DNA from: Pseudomonadota bacterium
Lineage (GTDB): Bacteria > Desulfobacterota > Desulfarculia > Desulfarculales > Desulfarculaceae
Length of the DNA: 64,000 nucleotides
Direction of reading: 5' to 3'
Assembly: GCA_018819925.1 (NCBI GenBank)
Contig: JAHJPG010000091.1
Location: 1-64,000 of the forward strand
Positions 9,054 through 25,125 of this stretch are shown one piece after another. Every line of letters starts with the position of its first letter. Position 1 is the stretch's first letter. A model generated the notes under the pieces. The model did no database searches, was not told the origin of the DNA, and saw only the letters and a list, made by a program, of their open reading frames with translations. The position numbers were made by a program, and so were the translations under genes.

Positions 9054-9982
9054 GCCAGAACACCCCCAGCAAGCTGGAGAAGATGCTCAAGGCCGGCCAT
9101 CAGGCCGTCACCTCCGAGTGCGGTCCCCCCCGGGGCAGCGACCCCGAGGCCATCAAGGAAAAGGCCCAGCTCATCAAGGACCACGTGGACGCCATCAACA
9201 TCACCGACAACCAGACCTCGGTGACCCGGCTCTGCTCCCTGGCCAGTTGCATCCACTTGAAGCTGGCCGGCCTGGAGCCCATCCTGCAGATGGTGACCCG
9301 CGACCGCAACCGCATCGCTCTGCAGAGCGATATCCTGGGGGCGGCCTCGTTCGACATCCACAACCTGCTGTGTCTTTCGGGCGACCATCAAAGCTTCGGC
9401 GACTGCGCCCAGGGCCAGAACGTGCATGACCTGGACTCCATGCAATTGATCCAGACCGTCAGGCACATGCGAGACGAGGGCAAGTTCCTGGGCGGCGACG
9501 AGATCAAGCGCCCCCCCCGGATGTTCGTGGGCGCGGCGGCCAACCCCTTTGCCGACCCCTATGAGATCCGGGTGCCCCGCCTGGCCAAGAAAGTGGCCGC
9601 CGGGGTGGAGTTCATTCAGACCCAGTGCATCTTCAACCTGGACAAGTTCGAGCAGTGGCTGAACGAAGCCCGCGACCGGGGCCTGTTGGAAAAAGTCTAC
9701 ATTCTGGCCGGGCTCACTCCCTTGAAGTCGGCGGGCATGGCCAAATACATGAAGAACCGGGTGCCGGGCATGGACGTGCCCGACGAGGTGGTGCAGCGCA
9801 TCGCCGGGGTGCCCAAGGAAAAGCAGGCCGAGGAGGGAATCCAGATGTGCATCGAGTCCATCCAGCGCCTTAAAGGGGTGGACGGAGTGCATGGCTTCCA
9901 CATCATGGCCATCGAGTGGGAGGAGAAGGTTCCGGAGATCGTGGAGAGCGCCGGGCTCTATCCGCGCCCCAAGCTGGACTAG
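9050..9982 (+). CDS. metF: Methylenetetrahydrofolate reductase (second copy, MetV partner)
   Basis: The product is 310 residues. It has an early catalytic-type Glu in VTSECGPPRGSD near residue 24, a long NITDNQTSVTRLCS segment near 54, CRDRN-like VTRDRNRIALQSDILGAA near 86, LSGDHQSFGD near 112, and ILAGLTPLKSAGMAKYMK near 232. This is the acetogen/sulfate-reducer MetF type rather than the E. coli NADH type. It overlaps metV by four bases, which favours it over copy 1 as the direct MetV partner. It would make methyl-THF for the Wood-Ljungdahl pathway, or run in reverse during complete acetate or fatty-acid oxidation. Confidence 0.88.
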   Translation: MSQNTPSKLEKMLKAGHQAVTSECGPPRGSDPEAIKEKAQLIKDHVDAINITDNQTSVTRLCSLASCIHLKLAGLEPILQMVTRDRNRIALQSDILGAASFDIHNLLCLSGDHQSFGDCAQGQNVHDLDSMQLIQTVRHMRDEGKFLGGDEIKRPPRMFVGAAANPFADPYEIRVPRLAKKVAAGVEFIQTQCIFNLDKFEQWLNEARDRGLLEKVYILAGLTPLKSAGMAKYMKNRVPGMDVPDEVVQRIAGVPKEKQAEEGIQMCIESIQRLKGVDGVHGFHIMAIEWEEKVPEIVESAGLYPRPKLD

Positions 9983-10004
9983 ATCGCCCTGTTCGCGGCG
10001 ATCA
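9983..10004 (+). other. Inverted repeat after metF2
   Basis: GATCGCC and GGCGATC arms separated by eight bases lie immediately after the metF2 stop, without a T-run. This is probably an mRNA 3'-end stability hairpin upstream of the true terminator at 10066-10108. Confidence 0.5.
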
Positions 10005-10065
10005 TGAATAAGCGATGAGTTAAAGCCGTAAACGCCCATGGAGGCGTCACCGGGGAGGAGGGGAC

Positions 10066-10108
10066 CCGCCGGGTTGGAGCTGCGTGGCTACAGCCCGGCG
10101 GATTTTTT
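10066..10108 (+). terminator. Rho-independent terminator of the metF/hdrA operon
   Basis: Perfect eight-pair stem CCGCCGGG (10066-10073) / CCCGGCGG (10094-10101) around a 20-base loop, with six T at 10103-10108. It ends the plus-strand operon just before the convergent histidine kinase gene. Confidence 0.85.
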
Positions 10109-10113
10109 GGGCC

Positions 10114-11613
10114 CTACGGGCTTGTCGCCGGCAGGGTGACGGTGAAGGTGCTGCCTTCGCCCAATTGGCTGGCCACCTCCACCTGGCCGCCCAGGGAGTC
10201 CACCACGCTTTTGACGATGGGCAGCCCCAGGCCGGTGCCGGTGACATAGCGCGTCTTCTCGTTTTTTATCCGGTAGAACCTGTCAAATATCTTGTCGAGC
10301 TTTTCGGGCTCGATGCCGAATCCCTGGTCCGCCACCGCCACCTTGACCGCCTCGCCTTCGCGCCAAGCGCGGATGCGCACCCTGGTGCCGTCGGGCGAAT
10401 AGTTGATGGCGTTGGCCACCAGGTTGGTGAACACGCTCTCCAGCCCACCCAGGTCGGCGAAAACCGTGGGCAGCGGCTCGGAGGGCAGCTCCACGATCAG
10501 TTTCATGCCCCGGTTCTGGGCCTGGGTGGACAGTGACTCCTTGACCGATAAGAGCAGCTTTTCCAGGCCCACCTCCACCGGGTTCTGCACCTCCCCGCCG
10601 CCGTCTTCCAGGCGCGAGAGGTCCAGCAGGTCGCGCACAAATGAGATGAGCCCCTGGGTGCGCTCCCGGGCCCGCACCAACAGGTGGCGGTGCCCCTGGG
10701 GTGGAGCCGCGCCCTCCTCGCCCAGCAGCAGGGTAAGCTGCAAAAGGATGGTGGACAGGGGCGAGCGCAGCTCGTGGCTCACCTTGGCCACGAATTCCTG
10801 GCGCAGCTGGTCCAGCATGCGGTAGGGGGTCACGTCCATGAACACCAACACCGCCCCCAGGCTCTCCCCCTGCCCGTTGAGCACCGGCGTGGCCTGGGCA
10901 AGCAAGCAACGGCCCTCCCGGGTGGTGAACTCCACCGAGGGCAACTCGTTGGCGGGGCCTTGCTTCCCACTGGACACCTGGCGGGCCAGCTGCTGCACCT
11001 TGGGTTCGGCGAGGTAGCGGGATATGTCCTGGCCGGGGGGGCTGTCGGCCCCCAGGCCCGCCATTTGGCAGAAGGCCGGGTTGTGCAACACCACCTGGCC
11101 GCCGGGCTGGGTGACCAGGATGCCCAAGGGCAAAGCGCTTATCACGGTGCGCAGGCGGCTCTTCTCCCCGGCCAAGTCCACCAGGGTTTGGCGGCGCTCC
11201 CTCTCCAGGCGCTCGGTTTCCTGGGTCAGGCGCAGCCGCTCCATGGCCCGGCCCACGGTGAGCCGCAGCTGATCGGGCTGGAAGGGCTTGGGCAAGAAAT
11301 CATAGGCCCCCAGCTTCATGGCCTCTATGGCGGTCTCCACCGTGGCGTAGCCGGTGATGACGATAACCAGGACCTGGGGGTGGGACTGGCGCAGGAGCTT
11401 GAGCACTTCCAGGCCGTCCATGCCCGGCATCTTCAAATCCAGCAGCACGATCTCCGCCGGGTCCAGCCGCATGGCCTCCAGGCCGGCGGCGCCGTCGGGC
11501 GCCTTGGCCACCTGGCAGCCATGGCGGATCAGGATGCGCTCACAGCCGTCGCGGATGTCGCCTTCGTCGTCGATTACCAGAACCGGCACTTTGGATGTGT
11601 CGCTAAAGGCCAC
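10114..11613 (-). CDS. REC-PAS-histidine kinase (receiver-first hybrid)
   Basis: The product is 499 residues. The N-terminal receiver (VLVIDDEGD acidic pocket; phospho-acceptor Asp in IVLLDLKMPGMD near 57; Thr in VITGYATV; Lys in LPKPFQPD) is followed by a PAS domain (about 150-265, ILVTQPGGQVVLHNPAF), HisKA with phospho-His in KVSHELRSPLS near 285, and HATPase motifs (NAINYSPDG N-box, DQGFGIEPE G1, GTGLGLPIVKSV G2). Receiver-first kinases act as relays after an upstream kinase. The GTG start at 11613 uses an AGGAGG that lies inside the end of the preceding kinase gene, so the two are co-transcribed and probably coupled. No transmembrane segment is visible, so it is cytosolic. Confidence 0.88.
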   Translation of the reverse strand: MAFSDTSKVPVLVIDDEGDIRDGCERILIRHGCQVAKAPDGAAGLEAMRLDPAEIVLLDLKMPGMDGLEVLKLLRQSHPQVLVIVITGYATVETAIEAMKLGAYDFLPKPFQPDQLRLTVGRAMERLRLTQETERLERERRQTLVDLAGEKSRLRTVISALPLGILVTQPGGQVVLHNPAFCQMAGLGADSPPGQDISRYLAEPKVQQLARQVSSGKQGPANELPSVEFTTREGRCLLAQATPVLNGQGESLGAVLVFMDVTPYRMLDQLRQEFVAKVSHELRSPLSTILLQLTLLLGEEGAAPPQGHRHLLVRARERTQGLISFVRDLLDLSRLEDGGGEVQNPVEVGLEKLLLSVKESLSTQAQNRGMKLIVELPSEPLPTVFADLGGLESVFTNLVANAINYSPDGTRVRIRAWREGEAVKVAVADQGFGIEPEKLDKIFDRFYRIKNEKTRYVTGTGLGLPIVKSVVDSLGGQVEVASQLGEGSTFTVTLPATSP

Positions 11614-11615
11614 GC

Positions 11616-13247
11616 CTATACCTCCTCGGCGGCGATGATGGAGGGCAGCTTGATGACGAACAGGGTGCCTTGGCCGGGCGGGCTGAAAACCTCTATGCTG
11701 CCACCGTGGTTTTTAACTATCCCGAAGGCCACGCTGAGTCCCAAACCGGTGCCCTCTCCCTCCTCCTTGGTGGTGAAGAAGGGTTCGAAAACATGGGGAA
11801 GCACCTCGGGAGGTATGCCCGGGCCGTTGTCGGATATCTCCACAAGCACACCCCGCCCACCGGGGAAGCGGCGAGTGCGCACATCGATGCGGCCGTTACT
11901 CTGCATGGCCTCGGCCGCGTTAAGGATAATGTTCATGAATACGTGGTTGAGTTGCTGAATATCAGCCGGGACCTGGGGCAGTTCAGGGTCCAGGTCCAGG
12001 TTCACGGAGATGTTCTGGAACTGGGCCTGGTTTCCCAGCAAAAACAGGGTGCGGGTCAGGGCCTGGTTGATATCGGCGGGGCGCATCTCCCTTTTGGTCT
12101 GCCGGGCGAATTGCAACAACTCCTTGATGGTGTCGCGGCTGCGCTGGGCGTTGTGCAGGATGCGCTTGAGGTCTTCCTGGGCCCCGGCGGGCAGATCGTA
12201 CTCCTCGCCCAGCAGATTGGCGTAGAGGGTTATGCCGGCCAGGGGGTTGTTGAGCTGGTGGGCCACCCCGGCGGCCAGCTTGCCTATGGAGGCCATCTTC
12301 TCCGACTGCAAAAGTTGCATGCGGGTCTGGTCCAGTTCGCGCTCCATGCGTTGCTTTTCGCGCAGGTCATAAAAGAAGCCCACCGTGGCCACTTCATTGT
12401 CGTCATCGGTGACCACCGCCGCCGAAAGGCTGATGGGCACTAAGCTGCCATCCTTGCGCAGCAGTCGCACCTCATGGGATTTTAGCTTTCCCTTGCCGCC
12501 GTGCTCCTCGCTACGCAGCAAGGCCATGACCTCGCGGGCGCCGTCGCCGGGGTAGATGCCGCGGATGTCGATCTCGTTGAGCGCCTCCTGTTCGCTGTAA
12601 CCGGTGATGTCGCCGGCCGCTTCATTGAACAGGATGATCTTGCCGGTCATGTCGGCGGCGATCACCGCGTCCACCGAACTCTTGATCAGGTTGCGCAAAA
12701 AGGCATTGGAGCGGATCAACTCCCGGTTGACTTCCTGGAAGCGGTGCCAGGCCCGCTGGCGCCGTGTGATGTCATGATGCACATGCACCACTCGGGCCAC
12801 CTCGCCGCTGGAATCCATCACCGGCAGGGTGGTGCATTCGATGTAGGATTCCTTGCCGTCGGGGGCGACGTAGACATGCTCGGACACGGCCGGGCTGCCG
12901 CTACGCATGGTCTCAATGGCATGGCAGGCGTCCTGCCGGTTCTGGCAGGGCTCGGGCCGATGGCGGGTAACTTGGTAGCAGGTATGGCCGATGACCTTGT
13001 CGCGCTTCAGTCCCAATTGGTCCAAAAACACTTGGTTGCAGTCCATCACCATGAAGTTGCGCGCGTCCACCACGTAGATGGCGTCGGGCAGGCTATCCAG
13101 CACCATCTCGCTGAACTTGCGCGCCCGGTCCATCTCCCGCTGTATCTGATGGCTCTGCTCCTGATAGGCTTCCAGCTCCCTTACCCGGGCCCTCAGGCTT
13201 TCCAACTCGGCAAACAGTTCGTCGGCCGAAGGTCTGTTGTCGTCCAT
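11616..13247 (-). CDS. PAS-PAS sensor histidine kinase
   Basis: The product is 543 residues and soluble. A short N-terminal coiled coil (ELFAELESLRARVRELEAYQEQ) precedes PAS 1 (about 45-170; AIYVVDARNFMVMDCNQ) and PAS 2 (about 185-305; AVIAADMTGKIILFNEAAG). HisKA follows with His in AAGVAHQLNNPLAG near 335, then HATPase N-box NAAEAMQS, G1 DNGPGIPPE and G2 GTGLGLSVAFGIVK. PAS 1 holds a Cys/His-rich stretch (CYQVTRHRPEPCQNRQDAC), which may coordinate a metal or heme, or may simply be the widespread PAS_4/PAS_9 insertion. It is first in a two-kinase operon and divergent from the receiver gene at 13466, its likely target. Confidence 0.88.
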   Translation of the reverse strand: MDDNRPSADELFAELESLRARVRELEAYQEQSHQIQREMDRARKFSEMVLDSLPDAIYVVDARNFMVMDCNQVFLDQLGLKRDKVIGHTCYQVTRHRPEPCQNRQDACHAIETMRSGSPAVSEHVYVAPDGKESYIECTTLPVMDSSGEVARVVHVHHDITRRQRAWHRFQEVNRELIRSNAFLRNLIKSSVDAVIAADMTGKIILFNEAAGDITGYSEQEALNEIDIRGIYPGDGAREVMALLRSEEHGGKGKLKSHEVRLLRKDGSLVPISLSAAVVTDDDNEVATVGFFYDLREKQRMERELDQTRMQLLQSEKMASIGKLAAGVAHQLNNPLAGITLYANLLGEEYDLPAGAQEDLKRILHNAQRSRDTIKELLQFARQTKREMRPADINQALTRTLFLLGNQAQFQNISVNLDLDPELPQVPADIQQLNHVFMNIILNAAEAMQSNGRIDVRTRRFPGGRGVLVEISDNGPGIPPEVLPHVFEPFFTTKEEGEGTGLGLSVAFGIVKNHGGSIEVFSPPGQGTLFVIKLPSIIAAEEV

Positions 13248-13386
13248 GCATACCTCTTTACGGCGAGGTGGCCACCGGATGAATCTATCGTAAAGAACAT
13301 ATCATATTAATAACGATGCCCACAATTGTGGTAGGGTTTGGCATTTCTCTAAAACTCCAAGGCCACCCAACGCTCCCCAGCATTTA

Positions 13387-13416
13387 TTGACAGTTTGTCC
13401 ATGATATTGCTATGCT
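13387..13416 (+). promoter_or_regulatory. Sigma-70-type promoter for the receiver gene
   Basis: TTGACA (13387-13392), an 18-base spacer and TATGCT (13411-13416) lie 50 bases before the ATG of the receiver protein at 13466. Confidence 0.5.
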
Positions 13417-13465
13417 ATGTAAAATTCTTCCTAGATCCTGATTACCTGTTGGGAGAGGGGTTGCA

Positions 13466-13852
13466 ATGGCCGGTAAGAGAGTGCTCATCATAGACGACGA
13501 TCCCGATTTGGTGGAAGCGATAAGCATGCTGCTGGAGGCCGAGGGCATGGTGCCCCTGGCTGCCTACGGAGGGATTGAGGGGCTGGAAAAGGCCCGCACC
13601 CAAAGCCCGGACATCATCATTCTCGATGTGATGATGGAGGACAAGGACGGTTTCACGGTGGCCAGGGAGGTTTCGGGCGATGACAAGCTCAGAGACATTC
13701 CCGTGATCATGCTCACCGCCGTGGCCGAGCACGCCATGGACACCAGCTACACGCCCCAAGCCGCCATTAAGTCCCTGGAGGCGGATGAATGGTTTGACAA
13801 GCCGGTGGACCCGGCGGCCCTTGTGAGCCGCATCAAGGAACTCGTCGGCTGA
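13466..13852 (+). CDS. Stand-alone response regulator receiver protein
   Basis: The product is 128 residues and a single REC domain. It has the acidic pair in VLIIDDDPD, the phospho-acceptor Asp in DIIILDVMMEDKDG near 53, the switch Thr in IMLTAVAEH near 83 and Lys in WFDKPVDP near 111. There is no output domain. The start is ATG at 13466 behind GGGAGAGGGG. It is divergent from the two kinases, so it is likely an intermediate in their phosphorelay. The target is not visible. Confidence 0.88.
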   Translation: MAGKRVLIIDDDPDLVEAISMLLEAEGMVPLAAYGGIEGLEKARTQSPDIIILDVMMEDKDGFTVAREVSGDDKLRDIPVIMLTAVAEHAMDTSYTPQAAIKSLEADEWFDKPVDPAALVSRIKELVG

Positions 13853-14318
13853 TCGCCCCCAAGGCCAGCCCGCTGGTTTCCCCGAGCCGATAACCCGCCA
13901 AGCAAGGCGGCATCCAAACGACCGTTTGGCGGGGCAGCGGCCCCGCCGACGAGGATGTTTATTGCGATCCTGTGAGGACTCGGACCTCGCCGAACATTCC
14001 ACTCCAAGCTTGTAGCTTTTCCCTGGGCACTTCGTAAGGCGTTTTTCCCCTCAGCGATCTGTGGGGGCGGCGATAATTGTAAAAGTGTTGTCCCTCCCTC
14101 CTAGCTTGGTTTGCGGCCGGGCCGGGTTTGGGCGCCTTGACGCCCAAAAAAGGGGCCCGGGGGAAGTGCCCAGCACCTCGGCGATGAACCCTGCCCCCGC
14201 TGGATCGGCGGAGGAATTGGGAGGGCCGCAAGTTAGATGTTGAGAACCGCTACATGCAACCATGCTAGACTTTAATAAATACGATGATTGGCCTTGAGTG
14301 TTTGAAGGGAGAGGCGCC
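13853..14318. other. Intergenic stretch with hairpins and an IS relic
   Basis: Apart from the transposase remnant, the stretch holds two small hairpins, CCAAAC/GTTTGG and CGGGGC/GCCCCG (about 13914-13948), just after the receiver gene. They may mark its transcript end. No intact gene is supported. Confidence 0.4.
13962..14100 (-). pseudogene. C-terminal fragment of an IS3/IS481-type transposase
   Basis: A minus-strand frame encodes HFYNYRRPHRSLRGKTPYEV followed by about 22 more residues and a stop. The YN-x-RPH-x-SL-x-G-x-TP-x-E/V pattern is the signature at the C-terminal end of DDE integrase-core transposases (IS3, IS481 families). Upstream of the first residue the frame turns into non-transposase sequence and no DDE catalytic core is present, so only about 45 codons survive. 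No terminal inverted repeats could be assigned. It indicates an old insertion and deletion between two receiver genes. Confidence 0.8.
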
Positions 14319-14798
14319 ATGTCCAACACCCTCGACGTAATCATTTTAGACGATGACCCACAGGTGAGCACGCTTTTGCACCGCATGCTGGAGAAGTTCT
14401 ACACACATGGCCAGGTCTTCTCTTTCTCCGACCCCGTGGAGGCCAAATATTTGCTCCTGAGGCATAACCGGGCCGTGGCCATTTTCGTCTTGGACGTTTT
14501 CTTGGGCCAGTTGACGGCTTTTGACTTCCTGGACCAAATCGTGGTGCACTATCCCATGGCATACCAAGACACCGTGGTGATCACCGGCAAAGCGGATCAG
14601 AACGTGGTGGATATGTGTCTGGCTTCAGGGGTTAACCATCTACTCGAGAAACCCATCAGGACCTATGCGCTTCGATTCGCCGTTCAGTCCATAGTTAACA
14701 AGTATGTCGGCTTTGCCCAAAAGCTATGGGAAGACCCCGCCTTTGCGCAAGATGTCCAACGCATCATCAACTTCCAGCCCCCAGCAAGCGAGGCCTAG
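14319..14798 (+). CDS. Divergent response regulator receiver protein
   Basis: The product is 159 residues with a REC domain in its first 125: VIILDDDPQ pocket, Asp in FVLDVFLGQ near 57, Thr in VVITGKADQ near 85, Lys in LLEKPIRTY near 107. The 35-residue tail (VNKYVGFAQKLWEDPAF and on) has no recognised output fold. ATG 14319 is preferred over the upstream GTG 14298 because AAGGGAG sits seven bases before it. Whether it belongs with the two kinases beyond the IS relic is uncertain. Confidence 0.78.
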   Translation: MSNTLDVIILDDDPQVSTLLHRMLEKFYTHGQVFSFSDPVEAKYLLLRHNRAVAIFVLDVFLGQLTAFDFLDQIVVHYPMAYQDTVVITGKADQNVVDMCLASGVNHLLEKPIRTYALRFAVQSIVNKYVGFAQKLWEDPAFAQDVQRIINFQPPASEA

Positions 14799-16055: not shown

Positions 16056-16394
16056 TCAGAAGGTGCTAATGGTGTCCGAGTCTTCCAGGATTTCCGCCAA
16101 ATCGTCGCGGGCAATCGCTTGGGCTCCTTCCAGGGATATGTCATCGCGCCCCAATTTTAGATCTTCGAAATCCTCTTTGAGATAATAAAGCGCGCCCTCG
16201 TTTTCCAAATAGGAGGCCAGGGTCTTTGACAGATAGGCGGGCATGGCGCCTGTCAGGCTAAGGATGCCGTCGCCTATGAAGACCAGAGCGGTTTCATATC
16301 CGCCCATCTGCGTGGCCAGGGCATTGCGCAGGCCCAAGGTGAACCGCTCATCGGCAAGAGGATGCCTGATTATGATGCATACGTTGTTGACCAT
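16056..16394 (-). CDS. DsrF/TusC-like small sulfur-relay protein
   Basis: The product is 112 residues with a DsrE/F alpha-beta fold: opening strand NNVCIIIRHPLAD, helix FTLGLRNALATQMGGY, strand ALVFIGDGILSL near residue 37, and ending DLAEILEDSDTISTF. The FIGDGIL motif is typical of DsrF/TusC proteins, which form the structural middle subunit of the DsrEFH or TusBCD persulfide-carrier hexamer. It is the last gene of the OsmC, DsrH-like, DsrE-like, DsrF-like operon (16 bases after the DsrE-like gene). It lacks a conserved catalytic Cys, as expected for DsrF. Confidence 0.75.
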   Translation of the reverse strand: MVNNVCIIIRHPLADERFTLGLRNALATQMGGYETALVFIGDGILSLTGAMPAYLSKTLASYLENEGALYYLKEDFEDLKLGRDDISLEGAQAIARDDLAEILEDSDTISTF

Positions 16395-16409
16395 TGGTGA
16401 CTCCTCTCC

Positions 16410-16805
16410 CTAACCGCCCAGGGTGAACGCGGCATCGGAAGTTAGTAAAAACTTGGTCAACGAGGAGCCGACATTTCCGCGTGACACCCCGTCCGTGTAT
16501 TCGCAGCCCTCGGTGCCGCGCACATATTCCGTTGTATGGCAGGTGTGAATCAGCGCTCCTTTTTCGGCCACGCTTTTGACCTTTTCCAACAAGCGCTGTG
16601 AATCCATGAAATCGGTCAACTCCTGATTCATGCCCCGATCGCCCGTCCAGGCGACTTCCTGGTTGGCCAGGTTGCAGGCGTTGCCGAAAAGAAAGAGATT
16701 CATTTTGTGGCCGCCTTCCAGGGCCGCCTCACTGAAGCGCAGAGCGAAATCCGCCAGCTCGTTTTCAGCGGCTCCGGAAATCAGGGTGATGGTAATTGTG
16801 GCCAT
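16410..16805 (-). CDS. DsrE/TusD-like persulfide-carrier protein
   Basis: The product is 131 residues. It has an N-terminal strand ATITITLISGA, helix LADFALRFSEAALEGGHK, strand MNLFLFGNACNLA near 40, and LIHTCHTTEYVRGT near 89. The Cys in this last segment is where DsrE/TusD carries its active-site persulfide. A second Cys follows seven residues later (EGC), and SRGNVGSSLTKFLLTSDAAFTLG closes the fold as in DsrE. The start is ATG at 16805 behind AGGAGC. It is flanked by DsrH-like and DsrF-like genes, so all three TusBCD-type subunits are present and adjacent. No dsrAB or tusA is in this window. Confidence 0.78.
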   Translation of the reverse strand: MATITITLISGAAENELADFALRFSEAALEGGHKMNLFLFGNACNLANQEVAWTGDRGMNQELTDFMDSQRLLEKVKSVAEKGALIHTCHTTEYVRGTEGCEYTDGVSRGNVGSSLTKFLLTSDAAFTLGG

Positions 16806-16813
16806 GTCAGCTC

Positions 16814-17092
16814 CTAGAGTTGAATCAGCTTTTGGCTGTTCAGCACGATTTCCACGATACGGTCCATATCCACCGTTTCGCAGGTGGAAGACGGCTTGAT
16901 GCCCCGCTTGGCCAAGGCGGCCTCTTCGGCGTAGACCTCGTCTATGGAATGCCCGGAAAGCACCTCGGCCATGGCCTCTCTGGCCAGATAGACCGCGTCG
17001 CTGATGAGCAGCAGTTCCTTGTCCTCGTCCCCTGCCAGCCGGTCCACGGTTTTAAGGACCCCAGCATCGGATGTGGTAAGCATGAAAAGCAT
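16814..17092 (-). CDS. DsrH/TusB-like small protein
   Basis: The product is 92 residues. MLFMLTTSDAG, LLLISDAVYLAREAMAEVL and VYAEEAALAKRGIKPSSTCETVDMDRIVEIVLN follow the DsrH/TusB layout, including the LLLIxDAVY strand and the C-terminal hydrophobic VDxxxIVEI. DsrH Cys near residue 20 is absent. A single Cys sits near residue 72 instead. It is co-transcribed with OsmC (16-base gap) and the DsrE-like gene (8-base gap). Confidence 0.72.
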   Translation of the reverse strand: MLFMLTTSDAGVLKTVDRLAGDEDKELLLISDAVYLAREAMAEVLSGHSIDEVYAEEAALAKRGIKPSSTCETVDMDRIVEIVLNSQKLIQL

Positions 17093-17107
17093 TGCGCGCC
17101 TCCCGGG

Positions 17108-17539
17108 CTACACGGCCTCGATGTTGTAGTCCACGTCCATCTCTTCCTCCAGGGAATAGGTGGCCAGGGACCCGTTGAGCAGGCTGCCGCGAACCGTCTG
17201 GAAGACCGGCTGGTCCTCCTCGGACACCGGCATCTCCACCTGGATTTCCATGTGGGTGAAGCGGGTGCGCAAATTAATGCCGCGTTCCTTTTCTATCTCG
17301 CCCGATGCGGTGATCTCACCGACATGTTTGGCCCCGCCCTTTTGCATGTCGCTGGCCAGGGTGCCCACATAGCACGACAGGGCCGCGGCCAGCAAAAAGC
17401 GCGCTCCGATGTGTTCTTCCTTGCGCACTTCCGGGTCCAATTCCAGGGGGTTCCAGGTGATGGTGGGCAGGGCCGCGGAGCCCATGTCTATCATGAATTT
17501 TCCGTCCTCACCTCGAGTCAGTTTCACCGTTACGCCCAT
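17108..17539 (-). CDS. OsmC-family protein, possible thiol/persulfide peroxidase relative
   Basis: The product is 143 residues with the OsmC fold: MGVTVKLTRGEDGKFMIDMG strand pair, WNPLELDPEVRKEEHIGARFLLAAALSCYVGTLASDMQK near residue 30-68 containing the helix with the first redox Cys, then ISASGEIE-type strands. The second Cys of peroxidatic OsmC/Ohr proteins is missing (the region reads EMPVSEEDQ), as in the YhfA-like branch. It is first in an operon with DsrH/E/F-like genes, pointing to sulfur-transfer chemistry rather than organic peroxide defence. That role is inferred from context. Confidence 0.78.
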   Translation of the reverse strand: MGVTVKLTRGEDGKFMIDMGSAALPTITWNPLELDPEVRKEEHIGARFLLAAALSCYVGTLASDMQKGGAKHVGEITASGEIEKERGINLRTRFTHMEIQVEMPVSEEDQPVFQTVRGSLLNGSLATYSLEEEMDVDYNIEAV

Positions 17540-17914
17540 ATGTATGTCTCTCTTCGTGGCTAAGAGTTATCGATAAATGCCTTGGATTACCGCAGTGGGA
17601 GAACCGCGGAGCCGGCCGTTATGCCTTGGCCCTTTTCAGCCGGCCGGGTGGAGTTTCCGGGTGGCATTTGTGGGGCGCATTGCACCGAAACGGCCGATAT
17701 CAGCCAGCTACCATTGCACCGGGCATGCCAACCGTGGTCAGCGGCAACACGCTTAAATTACTTACTTTTTCTGTAGGGTTCCCGTGGCGGCTGGGGCGAA
17801 AGCGACCCATGGGAGGTCAGATGGGGCATGGCCTTGAATTGTTTGGGTTTTTTGGCGGGGCGAAAGCGCCCAATGAGTCATTATCGCCCACGTTGGTGGG
17901 CCATTAAGGCCGGC
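17540..17914. other. Intergenic region upstream of the OsmC operon
   Basis: No gene is seen. It holds a possible -24/-12 promoter at 17714-17731 (minus strand), a near-repeat GGGGCGAAAGCG at 17793 and 17857 (each followed by A/C-CCC-A/C-AT), and a GCCCAC-GTTG-GTGGGC hairpin at 17887-17902 after the regulator stop, which may help end its transcript. Confidence 0.45.
17714..17731 (-). promoter_or_regulatory. Possible sigma-54 promoter upstream of the OsmC operon
   Basis: The minus strand reads TTGGCATGCCCGGTGCAA, with GG and GC separated by ten bases. The -24 box is close to TGGCAC and the -12 box is GTGCA instead of TTGCA. It is about 180 bases from the OsmC start. In GC-rich DNA such matches arise by chance, so this is weak. 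Confidence 0.3.
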
Positions 17915-19774
17915 TTAATCCGTGTCCGCGCCCTCGGCAATGCCCAATTTTTTCATCTTGCGGAAAAGGGTCTTGCGGGGAAGCCCCAGAGCCGCCGCCG
18001 TGTGCGAACGATTCCAATTGTACTTTATCAAGGAACGCACGATGATCTGCTTTTCAGCCTGCATCAGAACGGTGCGCAGGTCGCTTTCCTCCGAGGCCTG
18101 CGAGCTATCATTGGGAACCTGGGCCTGATCGGTGCCAGCGGGCATGAAATCCAGGTTGCCGAAGGCCATGTAGCGCTCTAATGTGTTGCGCAGCTCGCGC
18201 ACATTGCCCGGCCAGTCGTAGCTGAGTAGTTTGGCCATTTCGTAGCTGGCCATTTTATTGGCCGCGCCCAGCTTGTCTTCCAAAAAAAACTCGACCAAAA
18301 AAGGTATGTCTTCCTTGCGCTCCCTCAGGGGAGGCAGGGGGATGGGAATAACGTGTATCCGGTAGAAAAGGTCCTGGCGAAAGTCGCCGCTCCTTACCAT
18401 TCCCTCCAAGTCGCGGTTGCTGGCCGAGATAACCCTGAAGTCGGCTTGGGTGGATTTGGGGCTTCCGATGGCCGTGTATTCGCCGGACCCCAGGGCCCTG
18501 AGCAGCTTGACCTGGCTGGTGTAGCTGAGTTCGGCCACTTCGTCCAGGAAGAGGGTGCCCCCCTTGGCTTGGTCCAGAAACCCGGGTTTGTCGGCATGGG
18601 CCCCGGTGAAGGACCCCTTGCGGTGCCCAAAAAACTCGGCTTCGAACAGCTCCTCGGGTATGGCCCCGCAGTTCACCGCCACAAAGGGGCCTTCGTTTCT
18701 TTGACTCAGCTCATGCACGGCCTTGGCCACCAATTCCTTGCCCGTGCCGGTCTCTCCATAAATGACTATGCCGTAATCAGAGGAAGCGGCCCGCAGAATC
18801 GCCTCGAACACTTCTTGCATCTTTCGGCTTCTGCCGATTATGTTGCCCAGGCGAACTCGGTAGTCAATGGAGGTCTTGAGCCTCAGGTTCTCCACCCTGA
18901 GCTCTTGCGATTCCTTTTCTATGAGTTCTTCGCGCTGCTTGAACTCGGTGATGTCCATCACAGTGGACAAAGTAGCGGGACGCCCTACCCAATCAATGGG
19001 GGCGGGCCGGCCCTCGAACCAAAATTTGCGCCCGTTTTTATCTATGCCGGTCCAGCGAAAGCGCACCGGGTCCTTTTGGTTTTTGTCCAAGGTCTGCAAA
19101 ATTTGCTTATGGCGGATGCGGTCTCCCTCCGCCAGCAGCAGGCTGGCGGGCTTGTCCGCGAGCTCGGAGGGATGGGTGTAGCCGAACATGGTGCAAAAGG
19201 TCTGGTTGACCATTATAAGGAGCCCGTCCTGAATCAAGGCCACCCCGGCGGGCACATGCTCGGCCAGGATTCGCAGGCTGTTGAGGGCGCTGTACGCGGA
19301 GTCTTCGGCCGAGCCGCCTCCCGGAGCCGCAAAAACCGTCTCCAGCACCGAGCCGTCTTCCCCGTGGCGGCAGGCCAGTTCGGTAAAGGCCAAAGTCTCC
19401 CCGCCGGGCCCGTCGAAGCGCCCATGGGCTACCCAATGATCGGTGGCGGCCAGGAGCACAAGCGACTCCGGTCCAAGGACCTCGCGGGCCCCGGCCTCGT
19501 CGTCTCTGCGCAGGTAATCAGCCAGGAGGGGGTGGCCGCGGTCCAAGACCGAGGGAGGAAGGGGGCTCCCCAGCACACTGGCGGCCCGCAGACCGGTAAG
19601 ACTCTCCATGCCTTGGTCCCAGGCCGAGATCGCCCCCCCGGCGTCCATCACCAACTGCCCGGCCAAAACTGCATTGCCGGGCAGGCCCGATGGCCGTGCA
19701 TTAGGTTGTGGCAGCTTATGCCCTGAATCGGCTCGCACCATCTCGCCACCTAAAAGGTCACTAAAAGATGACAC
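17915..19774 (-). CDS. Sigma-54-dependent transcriptional activator with PAS sensing domains
   Basis: The product is 619 residues. The N-terminal 280 residues hold PAS-like folds (ISAWDQGMESLTGLRAASVLG near 45; VALIQDGLLIMVNQTFCTMFG near 180). The AAA+ domain (about 310-545) has Walker A GETGTGKE, the sigma-54-contacting loop as GSFTGA rather than GAFTGA, Walker B GGTLFLDEV, and LPPLRERKEDIP. A Fis-type HTH ends the protein (SHTAAALGLPRKTLFRKMKK). It starts at GTG 19774 and is the last gene behind the hydrolase and TRAP genes, so it probably activates the -24/-12 promoter at 25109-25125. The signal enters through PAS because no receiver domain is present. Confidence 0.9.
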   Translation of the reverse strand: MSSFSDLLGGEMVRADSGHKLPQPNARPSGLPGNAVLAGQLVMDAGGAISAWDQGMESLTGLRAASVLGSPLPPSVLDRGHPLLADYLRRDDEAGAREVLGPESLVLLAATDHWVAHGRFDGPGGETLAFTELACRHGEDGSVLETVFAAPGGGSAEDSAYSALNSLRILAEHVPAGVALIQDGLLIMVNQTFCTMFGYTHPSELADKPASLLLAEGDRIRHKQILQTLDKNQKDPVRFRWTGIDKNGRKFWFEGRPAPIDWVGRPATLSTVMDITEFKQREELIEKESQELRVENLRLKTSIDYRVRLGNIIGRSRKMQEVFEAILRAASSDYGIVIYGETGTGKELVAKAVHELSQRNEGPFVAVNCGAIPEELFEAEFFGHRKGSFTGAHADKPGFLDQAKGGTLFLDEVAELSYTSQVKLLRALGSGEYTAIGSPKSTQADFRVISASNRDLEGMVRSGDFRQDLFYRIHVIPIPLPPLRERKEDIPFLVEFFLEDKLGAANKMASYEMAKLLSYDWPGNVRELRNTLERYMAFGNLDFMPAGTDQAQVPNDSSQASEESDLRTVLMQAEKQIIVRSLIKYNWNRSHTAAALGLPRKTLFRKMKKLGIAEGADTD

Positions 19775-19904: not shown

Positions 19905-21863
19905 CTAGAAAAAGACACTGACCAGGCCCGTGGCCAGGGGTGGGTACACAATCAACAGGCCCAGCAGCAATATCATGCAGAGGAAGAAAGGCAGGATGCC
20001 GCTGAATATGGCCCCCATGCTCACGCCCTCGGCCACGCTGGACAGGGCGAAGACGTTCACCCCCACCGGAGGCGTAATCTGACCCACCTCCATGATGACC
20101 ACCGTGACCACGCCGAACCAGATGGGGTCGAAGCCCAGGGCGACGATGGAAGGAAATATGGCCGGCAGGGTGAGCAGGATCATGGGGATGACGTTCATCA
20201 GGCAGCCCAGCATGATGTAGAGCAGCAGCACCCCGCCCAGGATCAGGTAGCGATTCAAGCCGCTTTCGGTGACCACGCTGGCCAACTCGAAGGGCAGGCG
20301 GCTGGAGGCCATGAAGTAGCCTAGGATGCTCACCCCGATGAGGATCATCAAAAGCTTGCAGGTTATGAAAACCGTCTGCTCGCAGGCCCGCAACAAGCCC
20401 TTCCAGGTCAGCTTGCGCCGGACCACGGTTATCAGGAAGGCACCCACCACCCCGATGGCCCCGCCCTCGGTGGGGCTGAAAAAACCGCCCAGGATGCCGC
20501 CCAGGATGAGCACGAACAGGGCCAGCATGCCGATGACCCCCTTGAGGGAGGCCAACTTCTCCCTGAAGCTCACGGCCTCGCCCCGGGGCGCGGTTTCCGG
20601 CCGCAGGCTGGCGATGATCCAGATGGCGGCGATGAACATGAGCGCCAGCAGCACCCCCGGAACGATGCCGGCGATAAACAGCTTGCCCACCGATTCCTCG
20701 GTCACCAGGGCGTAAAAGATGAATCCAACGCTGGGGGGTATGAGGATGCCCAGGGTGCCGCCGGCCGCCAAAGCCCCGCAGGCCAGGCCGGACTTGTACT
20801 TTTTGGCCCGCATCTCGGGCAGGGCCACCGAACCCATGGTGACCGCGGTGGCCATGCTGTCCCCGCACACCGCGGCGAAGCCGGAGCAACCGGCCACCGC
20901 CGCCATGGCCAGGCCTCCGGGAAGCCTGCCCAGCCACTTGTAAGCGGTGTCGAAAAGCTCCTTACTGATGCCCGCCTCTGAGGCCAGAAGCCCCATGAAG
21001 ATGAATAACGGAGCAACAGCCAGGATGAAGCTGGCGGTGGTGTGGTAGGGAGACATGCCCAGAGAGTTCAAGGCTGGGGTCAGGTTGAAGCCCAGCACCC
21101 CCAGGCCGATGTAGCCCACTATGGACATGGCGAAACCGATGGGCATTCCCGAGAGCAGAAGCACCATCAAAAAGGCCATGCCGGAGAGGCCGTACTGGAA
21201 GCGGGATATCTCCCAGGGTATGGCTTTTAGCCAAATGGGCATGGTCAGCAGGGCGGCCGCCCCGGCCAGGGCCAAAACGATGCCCAGCCAGGAACGGTCT
21301 TGCATGTTCTCGGCCAGGCTGCGCAGCAGTTGCTGCAAAAGCACCAGGCACAACACCGACACGCCCACCGCCGCCAGGGTCAGGGCGATCCACACGGGTA
21401 TGCCTAGCATGGTGCTGTATTCAGAGGTCTTGTGCATGGCCGCCAAAATGGTGCGCCAACACATGATGCCGAAAAACACCGAGCAGGAGGCCAAGGAAAA
21501 AGTCTGTAGGCAGCGGGCGGCCTTGCGGGGCAGCTTGCAGGTGATCAGGTCAATGAAGATGTGCCCCTCGGACTTTTGAGTGTAGCCCATGGAGAGAAAG
21601 ACGATCACCACCATGAGGAACTCTTCTATTTCCACCACACCCGAAACCGACTTGCCCATAAGGATGCGAGCCAACACGTCGATGACGATGGGCAAAGACA
21701 TGGTCCCCACCGCCAAGACGCTGATGGCGAACATCCATCTGCCCAGGGGCTCCAGGATGACGTCCAAGCCATTGGCCAACTTTTCCAGAGGGTTGGCCCC
21801 AGCCTTGGGCGTTTCGTGCAAGTCACACGAGGCTTTGGAAATCAATGAAGAGAGCTCGGCCAT
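19905..21863 (-). CDS. TRAP transporter permease, fused small (DctQ) and large (DctM) subunits
   Basis: The product is 652 residues from ATG 21863. An in-frame GTG at 21881 is also possible. The first 170 residues form the four-helix DctQ part (WMFAISVLAVGTMSLPIVIDVLARI and EIEEFLMVVIVFLSMGYTQKSEGHIFIDL). The rest is the multi-helix DctM part with GLSGMAFLMVLLLSGMPIGFAM near 230, AAVAGCSGFAAVCGDSMATAVTMG near 330 and LGCLMNVIPMILLTLP near 560. Sodium- or proton-driven import of a carboxylate or similar anion is the family role. It sits between the binding protein and the sigma-54 activator. The substrate is unknown. Confidence 0.9.
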   Translation of the reverse strand: MAELSSLISKASCDLHETPKAGANPLEKLANGLDVILEPLGRWMFAISVLAVGTMSLPIVIDVLARILMGKSVSGVVEIEEFLMVVIVFLSMGYTQKSEGHIFIDLITCKLPRKAARCLQTFSLASCSVFFGIMCWRTILAAMHKTSEYSTMLGIPVWIALTLAAVGVSVLCLVLLQQLLRSLAENMQDRSWLGIVLALAGAAALLTMPIWLKAIPWEISRFQYGLSGMAFLMVLLLSGMPIGFAMSIVGYIGLGVLGFNLTPALNSLGMSPYHTTASFILAVAPLFIFMGLLASEAGISKELFDTAYKWLGRLPGGLAMAAVAGCSGFAAVCGDSMATAVTMGSVALPEMRAKKYKSGLACGALAAGGTLGILIPPSVGFIFYALVTEESVGKLFIAGIVPGVLLALMFIAAIWIIASLRPETAPRGEAVSFREKLASLKGVIGMLALFVLILGGILGGFFSPTEGGAIGVVGAFLITVVRRKLTWKGLLRACEQTVFITCKLLMILIGVSILGYFMASSRLPFELASVVTESGLNRYLILGGVLLLYIMLGCLMNVIPMILLTLPAIFPSIVALGFDPIWFGVVTVVIMEVGQITPPVGVNVFALSSVAEGVSMGAIFSGILPFFLCMILLLGLLIVYPPLATGLVSVFF

Positions 21864-21892
21864 GATCAGTCCAATCACCACGATTTAAAAGA

Positions 21893-21927: not shown

Positions 21928-22986
21928 CTACTTGAAGCCCCTGCCGGTGGTCTTGGCATACTCCGCGCTCAGGCGGAAGGCGTCCTCCATGATGGCCCGG
22001 GCGTTCTTGTAGCCCTTGCCCTCCATGTCCTTAACCCACTTTTCGCGCAGCGGCTTGGTGGAATCCAACCAGCTGTTGCGCTCTTTTTGGGACAACACGA
22101 TGAACTTGTGCCCCTTCTTGAGCAGCTTCTGGGAGTCGCGGGCCGCGCCTTGGTCCAAGGTGACGCCGCTCTTCTTGGCCATTACCGCTCCGGTGGTCTC
22201 GGTGAAGGCCTTTTGAATCTCCGGGCTCAGGCTGTTCCAAAGGTCATGGCTCATGGCGGACCAGAAGCCGGTGAGGAAGATGTCGCATACCGTAGTGAAC
22301 TTGACCGCCTCGGAGATCTTGAAGGACACCACCGGGGCCAGGGGGCACATGATGCCGTCGGCCATGCCGCGCTCTAGGGCCAGGTAGGAATCGGTGGGGG
22401 GAATCATGATGGGGTTGGCGCCCAGGGCCTTCATGATATCCACCGAACTGCGGTTCCAGCAAATGATCTTGAGGCCCTTGAGGTCCGCGCGGTTCTTGAC
22501 CGGCTTCTTGGTGGTGTGCAGTTGGAAGGTGGCGCTGGCCCACAACCAGAGGATTTTTACCTCCTTATACTCCTGCTTGAATTCCGGGTACTTGTTGTAC
22601 AGGTCCCAGTACACCAGGGAGCCGCACTCGGCGCCGGGGGCCAGGCCGGGCAACTCCATCACCGTGCTCAGGTTGAACTTGCCGGCGTTGCGGGAGATGT
22701 CGTTGCCGCCGATGCTGATCATCCCCGAAATAGCGGAGTCGTAGTGATCCTTGAGGGGGGTCAGGGTGTTGGGGTTGTAATAGGAGATGTTGATCTTACC
22801 GTTGGTAAGTTTGGCCATGTCCTTGAACCAGGGGGTCCAGGCGTTGAGCACCGTGGGGTGGGAGTTCATGTACACGGTGGTCATGGACAGGTCCATCTTC
22901 TTGGAAGCGGCCATGCTGCCCGCGGCCATAGTGAGCATCGAGGCCAGCACCAGGCCGGCCACGGCGATTTTCTTTATTCTCGACAT
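21928..22986 (-). CDS. TRAP transporter periplasmic solute-binding protein (DctP family)
   Basis: The product is 352 residues. The N-terminal signal peptide (KKIAVAGLVLASMLTMAAGSMA) is followed by a DctP fold: LSMTTVYMNSHPTVLNAWTPW, LTNGKINISYYNPNTL, a central DLKGLKIICWNRSSVDIMKALG near residue 165 and LERGMADGIMCPLAPVVSFKI near 205. The Arg that salt-bridges carboxylates in the LKGLKIRxxG segment of DctP is replaced here (KIICWNRS), with Arg two positions later, so the ligand may not be a simple carboxylate. It is second in the hydrolase/TRAP operon. Confidence 0.9.
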   Translation of the reverse strand: MSRIKKIAVAGLVLASMLTMAAGSMAASKKMDLSMTTVYMNSHPTVLNAWTPWFKDMAKLTNGKINISYYNPNTLTPLKDHYDSAISGMISIGGNDISRNAGKFNLSTVMELPGLAPGAECGSLVYWDLYNKYPEFKQEYKEVKILWLWASATFQLHTTKKPVKNRADLKGLKIICWNRSSVDIMKALGANPIMIPPTDSYLALERGMADGIMCPLAPVVSFKISEAVKFTTVCDIFLTGFWSAMSHDLWNSLSPEIQKAFTETTGAVMAKKSGVTLDQGAARDSQKLLKKGHKFIVLSQKERNSWLDSTKPLREKWVKDMEGKGYKNARAIMEDAFRLSAEYAKTTGRGFK

Positions 22987-23054: not shown

Positions 23055-25025
23055 TTAGGCGCAGTCGTGGTGGTCCCAGGGCTCCCGGCTGTCCCGGGAC
23101 ATGGCGGCCTCCATACGCTTGATCCCCTCGGTGAGCTTGCTCAACTCCTTGTCCTTGAAGTTGGGGTCCTTCATGGCCTGATAGAGCACGGCCCCCTCGC
23201 AGGTGGACGGAACCGGAATTCCGGTGAGGAAGCAGATGGTCGGCACCACGTCCCAGAGCCAGCAACTGCGTTCCATCAGGTTGTTTTTCTTGATGTTGGG
23301 CCCGTTGAGGATCAACAGGGGATAGAGCTTGCCCGGGCCATATTCGGCGGTGGGCAGCATGTGCCCGTGCTGGCCGCCAAACTCCGGATACAAGGCATAG
23401 ACCACATCGCCAACCCTGTCGCCGTAGAGCCCCAGGATGCGGGCGTCCTTCTTGGTTAGGGCCATGGCCACCGGGCGCTTGCCGGTCTCCGGGTCCACAT
23501 AGGTCAACAAGGCGTCGCAGATCTCGCGCTGAACCTTCTCGTAGTCCTCGGGCTCCACGATGCCTTCGGGGTCCCGGCCCTTGAGGTTCACGCACACGTA
23601 GACCTCTCGCTGGGGAACGGCCTTGGAGCGGGAATAATCCGGCTTGTTCATGCTCAGGGCGATGGGGTTGACCTCGTTGTCCATAGCCTTGTCTTCGGTC
23701 TTGCAGGCCAGGCCGGCCGGCTCCAGGGCCACGTAGGGATCGAACACCGGGCCGTCGGGGGTGGCGCCGTGGTCGGAAACCACCACCACCAGGGTGTCCT
23801 TGTCGGCCTGGCTGAGCAGCCGCTCCAGCATGCGGTCCTCGATCTCGTATATGCGGCGGTGGACCTCCCATGCCTTTTCGCGCTTGGCCTGGTCTTCGCT
23901 TATCATGTCCAGGATCACAAGGTGGTACATCCAGTCAATGGGATGGGAATGCATGTAGAAGACATCCCAGTCGCTATTTTCCATGAGGGCCACCGCGCAC
24001 TCGGCATTCCAGGTGGAGAGGTTGTCATTCATCTCCACATAGGTGTCCAAATCGATGCTGCCCAGCATGCCCATGATCATGCCGCCGTTGGAGTGTATCG
24101 AGCCCTTGGTGACCTCGATGTTCTCTCCGGCCTCCAAAGGCTGCACCCAGCCCTTGGTTGGGATGAGGGCTCCCACCAACAACTTGAAATTGCTCAGGTC
24201 GTCGGATAGTTCCATGAGCTTACAACGAGTGAAAACTTCCTGCTCGCTTCCGTCCTCCATTTTTATGGTGGTAACGATGCGCTCGCTCCACTGGCCGGGC
24301 ATAAGGGAGCAAAGCACTTGGTCATTGTTTTTGCCGGTGGCCAAGGTGACGCGGCCGTAATCGTCTCCGCTACCGTGGGCCAAAACCCACCAACTGGTGG
24401 GGACGGGGCGTTTGACGGCCTTGGGGAATGGAAGCTTAACTTCCATTTCCTGGGGATCGTCGCCCATGCCGTCCATGCCTTCCCAGTCCTCGGCATCGGA
24501 GAACTCGCCCCTGAAGCCGTTGGGATAAAAATCGGTGGATATCAGAAAGTCTTCGCACAGGAAGAATTTGGAATCCAACCCGGGAAGGCCTTGGCGGTTT
24601 TCGCCCACGTGGAACCCGTCGCCCCCGACGATGATGCCGTTGTTCATGCGGGTGGGGGCCGATCCGGGATAGGTGAACACTATGCACTTCTTGCCGGCCT
24701 TGTCGGCGGTTTCCCAGATAAACTCCGCCTGAACCCTTTCCCGGTCCCAGTTCTGGGTGATGTTCTCGTTGCCGGGATTCTCGCCGGGCGTGGGATTGTG
24801 GAAATCGGTGATGCCGTGGGTGCCGGTGAAGGCCCCGGTGCCGATGGCGGCCCAGTTGGGGGGGGTCACGGTGGGGTAAGGAGCCAAGCAGTTCGCGGCC
24901 AGGGTGCCCTTTTCGATGAGCTTCTTGAACGTCGGCAAATATCCCTCGTCAACATACTTCCGCACCATGTGCGGTAGCGCACAGTCCAGACCGATCACCA
25001 TGACCTTTTGGGGCTGTTTTGACAC
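23055..25025 (-). CDS. Cytosolic alkaline-phosphatase-superfamily phosphodiesterase/phosphohydrolase
   Basis: The product is 656 residues without a signal peptide. Superfamily metal and catalytic elements are MVIGLDCALPHMV near residue 10, the nucleophile Thr in YPTVTPPNWAAIGTG near 55, HSHPIDWMYHLVILD near 372 (metal ligands Asp and His), and VVVVSDHGATPDGPVFD near 415 (Asp-His pair). It matches the Phosphodiest/COG3379 group of predicted phosphohydrolases or phosphomutases. It is the first gene behind a sigma-54 promoter and precedes the TRAP importer genes, so it may act on the imported compound once inside. That substrate is not identified. Confidence 0.85.
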   Translation of the reverse strand: MSKQPQKVMVIGLDCALPHMVRKYVDEGYLPTFKKLIEKGTLAANCLAPYPTVTPPNWAAIGTGAFTGTHGITDFHNPTPGENPGNENITQNWDRERVQAEFIWETADKAGKKCIVFTYPGSAPTRMNNGIIVGGDGFHVGENRQGLPGLDSKFFLCEDFLISTDFYPNGFRGEFSDAEDWEGMDGMGDDPQEMEVKLPFPKAVKRPVPTSWWVLAHGSGDDYGRVTLATGKNNDQVLCSLMPGQWSERIVTTIKMEDGSEQEVFTRCKLMELSDDLSNFKLLVGALIPTKGWVQPLEAGENIEVTKGSIHSNGGMIMGMLGSIDLDTYVEMNDNLSTWNAECAVALMENSDWDVFYMHSHPIDWMYHLVILDMISEDQAKREKAWEVHRRIYEIEDRMLERLLSQADKDTLVVVVSDHGATPDGPVFDPYVALEPAGLACKTEDKAMDNEVNPIALSMNKPDYSRSKAVPQREVYVCVNLKGRDPEGIVEPEDYEKVQREICDALLTYVDPETGKRPVAMALTKKDARILGLYGDRVGDVVYALYPEFGGQHGHMLPTAEYGPGKLYPLLILNGPNIKKNNLMERSCWLWDVVPTICFLTGIPVPSTCEGAVLYQAMKDPNFKDKELSKLTEGIKRMEAAMSRDSREPWDHHDCA

Positions 25026-25108: not shown

Positions 25109-25125
25109 AGCAATAATTGTGCCTA
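25109..25125 (-). promoter_or_regulatory. Sigma-54 (-24/-12) promoter of the hydrolase/TRAP operon
   Basis: The minus strand reads TAGGCACAATTATTGCT: GGCAC at -24, TTGCT at -12, with exactly ten bases between GG and GC. Transcription would start near 25098, about 73 bases before the ATG at 25025. A sigma-54 activator is encoded at the end of the same gene row. Confidence 0.8.

Follow-up and report, generated by a model that had tools for sequence, protein, structure and literature searches.

The closest described relatives of the locus reported here are sulfur carriers of the DsrEFH type. DsrEFH type I of Allochromatium vinosum and TusBCD of Escherichia coli are both composed of three E/F/H subunits with an invariant DsrE Cys. 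In sulfur oxidation through the sHdr/lipoate-binding-protein system, sulfur takes alternative routes depending on the organism, on a lipoyl carrier or on a Dsr-type carrier; to our knowledge, this system includes neither OsmC nor a PF01663 hydrolase. DsrEFH type II, as reported in the accessible part of its description, occurs in sulfate-reducer-type genomes, displays one conserved DsrE Cys and low identity to type I, adjoins tusA and yeeE/yedE, and transfers sulfur to DsrC in vitro (PMC13293266, ISME J 2026). A further group of interest consists of the OsmC/Ohr thiol peroxidases, for which the part of the literature available to us describes an active site where Glu51 works together with Cys61, and an intramolecular disulphide whose reductant is a lipoylated protein (PMC5962072).

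In the 64,000-nucleotide stretch of DNA analysed here (the window), four minus-strand open reading frames encode an OsmC-family protein of 143 AA residues (17108..17539), followed in the order of transcription by a DsrH/TusB-like subunit (B, 92 AA, 16814..17092), a DsrE/TusD-like subunit (D, 131 AA, 16410..16805) and a DsrF/TusC-like subunit (C, 112 AA, 16056..16394), with intergenic gaps of 15, 8 and 15 nt, respectively. A preceding sequence-only reading had placed an OsmC gene and a DsrH/E/F trio at 16056-17539, and this family assignment is upheld by Pfam and by PDB searches in which the profile of each protein was built from four homologues. The three subunits score above their Pfam cut-offs (DsrH, 28.4 bits to PF04077; DsrE and DsrF, 23.9 and 25.6 bits to PF02635), and their E/F/H identity, as judged from sequence, holds because the best PDB profile matches are TusB 2d1p_C, DsrE 2hy5_A and DsrF 2hy5_B, respectively. 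All three missed the NCBIfam equivalog cut-offs for TusB, TusC and TusD (38.2 of 49.2, 18.3 of 94.15 and 19.7 of 89.25 bits), and the 27 copies of the trio discussed below share 18-39% identity with E. coli TusD, TusC and TusB. The OsmC protein gave 19.7 bits against PF02566, under the cut-off of 27.5 bits; its nearest solved relative in the profile search is E. coli OsmC (1qwi, 1nye), and its AlphaFold2 model (mean pLDDT 88.6) displays the OsmC fold, with a best E value of 1.4e-07 to 1nye and a TM score of 0.76 to 2onf.

The sequence-only reading had hinged on the four genes being kept together outside this organism. Indeed, OsmC, DsrH, DsrE and DsrF were found together in 27 copies at 26 loci of 24 genomes, mainly of Desulfovibrionaceae, with further hosts in the class of the window and in one Chloroflexi MAG; G168, G384, G246 and G136 duplicate the contig places of G514, G600, G560 and G486. 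The genes occur in two orders, OsmC-H-E-F in 11 copies and H-E-F-OsmC in 16, mostly with gaps of 10-45 nt, and in a Desulfarculus sp. MAG (G014) OsmC and DsrH are fused into a single protein of 286 AA residues with a Pro-rich linker. As OsmC accompanies the trio in 26/26 loci where the cassette-type DsrE occurs, the association is above chance. Homologues of TusA and YeeE were found in none of the 26 cassette loci by a search that was positive in two control loci. The statement of the sequence-only reading that the trio is not joined to tusA or tusE thus stands for the locus, although the genome encodes TusA and DsrC/TusE families elsewhere. These neighbourhoods bear on the explanation that the trio is a sulfur-oxidation DsrEFH, type II-like, which lies beside OsmC and a hydrolase by chance. 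The hosts do have DsrC, and the single invariant DsrE Cys is as reported for type II (PMC13293266); type II, however, is syntenic with tusA and yeeE/yedE in that report, neither of which is present in the 26 loci, and OsmC has been kept at all of them despite the change of order, in one case fused to DsrH. We regard this explanation as very unlikely.

A DsrE profile search of the phylum gave any match in 25/395 genomes, with more than 43 bits only in the window genome; matches were found in 4/63 genomes of the class and in 2/21 of the order, the window genome being one of the two, and none in the seven other genomes of the window's genus among these 21. The family of a Desulfovibrio match was positive in 19/247 genomes, and a peptide-pattern search for DsrE in the GTDB contig set returned 8 loci, of which two are archaeal distant relatives. 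The 27 cassette DsrE proteins form one clade against 8 outgroup rows (support 100/99), with long branches. Among DsrE-like sets of other kinds, the cluster at 7398-9848 of L151 (G081) comprises a DsrE/F/H-like trio linked to TusA plus two additional genes of the DsrE family, and is only remotely related to the cassette (34, 38 and 21 bits). The archaeal MAG loci L034 (84-1890) and L035 (9528-10775) hold tandem DsrE-like genes with CSRC and CHRC motifs, in L035 near tetrapyrrole biosynthesis genes, and are possibly archaeal DsrEFH type II.

The window DsrE (68% identity) and its neighbouring PF01663 hydrolase (79%) are closest to copies from the Desulfovibrionaceae family that share the same TRAP/sigma-54 arrangement. 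Because of this affinity and the absence of DsrE from seven congeneric genomes, the window copy was probably acquired by transfer and moved as a block, as far as sequence comparison can tell. The same two observations would also suit an account in which the genes belong to a mobile island and are neighbours through descent only, with no shared function. Such an account is highly improbable, as gene content was held while the order changed, OsmC and DsrH became fused in one genome, and exchange took place repeatedly at one hydrolase locus (see below).

The sequence-only reading had also described OsmC as a single-Cys protein. Indeed, Cys56 is the sole Cys of the window OsmC; alignment made it the equivalent of Cys59 in E. 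coli OsmC, with Ser124 at the position of the resolving Cys125. The first Cys is present in 29/29 sequences, comprising the 27 cassette copies and two OsmCs that are linked to the hydrolase but do not lie beside the trio. The resolving Cys is replaced by Ser in 27/27 cassette OsmCs and retained in 46/46 OsmC relatives without a nearby DsrE, as well as in all nine distinct non-cassette OsmCs of an earlier comparison, four of which are places recurring among the 46 loci. The catalytic Glu of Ohr, ten residues before the first Cys, was found in 0/27 cassette OsmCs and 0/46 two-Cys OsmCs. A role in classical OsmC/Ohr peroxide defence was set aside, as neither the resolving Cys nor the catalytic Glu is present. 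The Cys/Ser split could be one event of single origin, because the one-Cys OsmC moves with DsrEFH as a block.

In DsrE, the Cys that had been called intact, Cys89, is conserved in 27/27 copies within a motif close to TCHT..E..RG.E. Its predicted equivalence to Cys78 of DsrE is based on its position in PF02635 and on the motif, the profile alignment of the window protein to the solved DsrE ending at residue 72, ahead of Cys89. The suggestion that the DsrH Cys has moved proved weak: this Cys is present in 22/27 homologues, and E. coli TusB contains no Cys. The DsrH Cys was rejected as a transfer site for its absence in 5/27 copies. DsrF lacks a conserved Cys; its Cys6 appeared invariant in 4 sequences and was abandoned as such when only 18/27 copies were found to carry it. 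On balance, it is an even call that the four genes function and move as a unit, forming a thiol relay with the OsmC Cys as the point of entry and DsrE Cys89 as the next carrier.

Upstream of the cassette, the same strand encodes a PAS-domain sigma-54-dependent activator of 619 AA residues (17915..19774), a relative of which is present in most related loci, a fused TRAP transporter DctQM (658 AA, 19905..21881), a TRAP solute-binding protein DctP (352 AA, 21928..22986) and the PF01663 hydrolase, a member of the alkaline-phosphatase superfamily (656 AA, 23055..25025; hereafter PDE). Scoring against what we take to be the sigma-54 consensus identified two promoter-like sites on the minus strand. 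The site at 25109..25124 lies 99 nt before the PDE start and was equalled by 0/200 shuffles; that at 17715..17730 lies 191 nt before the OsmC start and agrees with the consensus at 10/12 positions, 3% of shuffles scoring as well. Sites of at least 10/12 positions lie 152-195 nt before OsmC in 8/11 OsmC-first copies, the window included, and none was found within this range in the remaining 3; a second sigma-54 pattern was modelled on the match at 17715..17730 and is not independent support. A PAS histidine kinase and two single-domain response regulators are also encoded near the cassette (11616-14798), as a separate unit.

PDE residues D14, T54, D364, H368, D418, H419 and H553, which we presume from their resemblance to NPP enzymes to be metal ligands and the Thr nucleophile, are intact in the window and invariant in 25 aligned sequences. 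The PDE model (pLDDT 88.5) matches the fold of PafA and NPP enzymes, at the superfamily level only. PDE adjoins the cassette in 21/26 loci; of the five cassette loci without it, four are cut short there by the end of the contig, and only L021 truly lacks it, although its genome (G059) encodes many PDE paralogues. This MAG holds around ten PF01663 paralogues (contigs C2, C10, C70, C82, C167, C181 and others; L069-L077), several of which adjoin genes for CoA-dependent degradation, oligopeptide-type binding proteins or MFS transporters. The Cys of the G-x-D-C-A motif of the hydrolase was rejected as a marker of DsrEFH loci, as several of the G059 paralogues far from DsrEFH also contain it. In L021, a PLP enzyme of the cystathionine gamma-synthase/methionine gamma-lyase type is encoded directly upstream of OsmC-DsrHEF (9037-10215). 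Beside the PDE of L108, a protein of 193 AA residues (10939-11520), negative in Pfam and NCBIfam searches, resembles the C-terminal part of PDE. A connection with the Sao system of NCBIfam was not retained, since the ABC ATPase of L101 gave 233 bits against SaoA, for which the cut-off is 360.

A second form of the locus was recognised at L023, L027 and L026, where a two-Cys OsmC, Lpd (dihydrolipoyl dehydrogenase) and a GcvH-like lipoyl protein take the place in which others hold the one-Cys OsmC and DsrHEF. The three loci also carry PDE, the short PDE-like protein, a sigma-54 activator and an EamA or BCCT transporter, and their PDEs share 64% identity over the full length with that of L108. 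The short PDE-like protein adjoins PDE in most loci of the Desulfovibrionaceae family, in both relay forms. With a profile of both kinds, OsmC was detected in 68/247 genomes of the family, including all 19 that are DsrE-positive. The 46 non-cassette OsmC loci are the matches scoring 139 bits or more; a further 23 rows, none above 115 bits, were left out, and the OsmC row of G485 was counted inside L109. None of the 46 has DsrE nearby; PDE is present in 33, Lpd in 33, GcvH in 32, and Lpd together with GcvH in 30. Lpd lies 5-140 nt downstream of OsmC in 32/33 cases, and the lipoyl-Lys motif is present in 32/32 GcvH proteins. Of these two-Cys loci, 13/46 are without PDE and 13/46 without Lpd nearby, some being cut by contig ends.

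In a tree of 60 hydrolases, built without exact duplicates and without sequences below 480 AA residues, the DsrEFH label requires 9 changes, of which supported branches force at least 8; the lipoyl label denotes a tblastn match within approximately 8 kb, which contig ends can make erroneous. Furthermore, two lipoyl-form loci, L201 and L204, branch within the DsrEFH-form loci, and their PDEs share 90 and 91% identity with the L108 PDE. Because of these tree changes and this nesting, the sequence data indicate that one type of hydrolase locus has swapped its relay several times. The two relays can also coexist, since 5/19 DsrE-positive genomes of the family hold a two-Cys OsmC as well, and the lipoyl operon can occur by itself, as in three of these five the two-Cys OsmC occurs with Lpd and GcvH and with no PDE nearby.

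Both kinds of OsmC also occur together elsewhere. In L109 of G485 (8974-13918), a one-Cys and a two-Cys OsmC are arranged around one PDE and one DsrHEF trio, with no Lpd or GcvH; G571 (L185) encodes both kinds on two short contigs; and a 28.7-kb Chloroflexi contig of G442 (L067, L068) encodes two OsmCs, a one-Cys protein in the cassette and a two-Cys protein, together with three complete PDEs and a short PDE-like protein. The choline TMA-lyase gene cutC lies beside the lipoyl form in four genomes (L026, 10052-13486, together with cutD; L191; L209; L225), that is, in 3/46 loci of the lipoyl search plus L026. An assignment of choline or taurine as the substrate was not adopted, the BCCT, TRAP and taurine-type ABC neighbours and the cutC genes near lipoyl loci being hints only.

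The best reading of these observations is that the one-Cys OsmC and DsrHEF form an exchangeable thiol or persulfide relay which replaces the two-Cys OsmC, the lipoyl protein and Lpd. The sequence-only reading had OsmC act together with a DsrEFH-like carrier, a proposal that the conservation of the cassette partly supports; at the level of sequence, further support comes from the exchange with the lipoyl/Lpd module and from the resolving Cys having been lost solely in OsmCs accompanied by DsrEFH. A purely redox role could account for part of the same evidence. OsmC would then reduce an oxidised compound or disulphide, and the DsrE Cys would resolve the mixed disulphide, with no sulfur being carried. 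OsmC/Ohr proteins are known thiol enzymes whose disulphide is reduced by a lipoylated protein (PMC5962072, as far as the accessible text goes), the alternative lipoyl/Lpd module is exactly that reductant, and the missing resolving Cys suits a resolver from outside. Against this, trimers of the DsrEFH type are known for carrying sulfur and not as reductants, the cassette holds no reductase for DsrE, and the peroxidase Glu is absent from both kinds of OsmC, so that we consider a role confined to redox chemistry somewhat unlikely.

For the relay in which sulfur is carried, the following sequence of steps may be envisaged. A small solute would enter through the TRAP transporter in the window, or through a BCCT or ABC transporter at other loci, and the cytoplasmic PF01663 hydrolase would take part in its processing, after which the OsmC Cys would take up sulfane sulfur as a persulfide. 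In the two-Cys OsmC, by extension from Ohr, which is the best-studied relative of OsmC, the second Cys would displace the sulfur as sulfide, and the lipoyl protein and Lpd would reduce the resulting disulphide. Lacking the resolving Cys, the one-Cys OsmC would have to hand its sulfur on, and DsrE is a known type of acceptor; the persulfide would move to Cys89 of DsrE, in a DsrE/F/H-type trimer, and then to DsrC. By analogy with type II, the cassette relay probably passes sulfur to DsrC. The DsrC of the window genome has both C-terminal Cys residues, and DsrC and TusA families are present in 20/20 cassette genomes tested, out of 24; this presence is weak support, since most hosts of this kind should have DsrC in any case. 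Transcription probably depends on sigma-54 and on the activator encoded next to the cassette. Taken as a whole, a sigma-54-regulated pathway in which the cytoplasmic PF01663 hydrolase operates with either relay, the DsrE Cys replaces the resolving Cys in trans, and sulfide release gives way to delivery of sulfane sulfur to DsrC, such that imported organic sulfur enters dissimilatory sulfur metabolism directly, is put forward tentatively, as a possibility that falls short of being probable.

Sulfur may also be imagined to flow in reverse, with DsrEFH giving it to OsmC and from there to a product of the hydrolase pathway, in a thiolating, biosynthetic reaction. E. coli TusBCD, which works in biosynthesis, would be a precedent, and the accessible account of type II describes exchange of sulfur with TusA in both directions in vitro (PMC13293266). 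However, transfer from type II to DsrC is one-way in the same account, and the lipoyl/Lpd module, being interchangeable with the trio, could hardly be a source of sulfane sulfur, leaving this direction quite unlikely.

If the persulfide relay is correct, OsmC, known for peroxide defence, joins a sulfur-carrier chain, and the lipoyl relay and the DsrEFH relay are interchangeable parts. Since near-identical hydrolase loci with either relay occur in close Desulfovibrionaceae genomes, the role of the relay is directly testable by swapping. A further consequence is that a DsrEFH-like trio in a sulfate reducer should be taken for a marker of sulfur oxidation only once its neighbours have been checked.

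Compared with the known systems, the cassette shares with DsrEFH type I and TusBCD the three E/F/H subunits and the invariant DsrE Cys; it differs in its low identity to TusB/C/D, with scores under the NCBIfam cut-offs, and in being tied to OsmC rather than to dsrAB or tusA. With type II it has in common the sulfate-reducer-type hosts, the single conserved DsrE Cys and the low identity to type I. Type II was counted in 985 genomes with an HMM threshold of 80 bits (PMC13293266), and some cassette members may lie within these; the cassette differs in synteny, none of its 26 loci showing the tusA and yeeE/yedE neighbourhood, and the description of type II, in its accessible part, features no OsmC, hydrolase or lipoyl exchange (PMC13293266). 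A search of one open-access collection found no description of OsmC joined to a DsrEFH-type carrier. OsmC/Ohr peroxidases with their lipoylated reductant resemble the cassette OsmC in fold and first Cys, and in the sister loci OsmC is encoded together with Lpd and a lipoyl protein; the cassette OsmC differs from them in its Ser at the resolving position, its lack of the catalytic Glu and its DsrEFH partner. The parts are therefore members of known families, whereas the combination of OsmC with DsrEFH and the exchange of this combination with a lipoyl relay appear to be undescribed.
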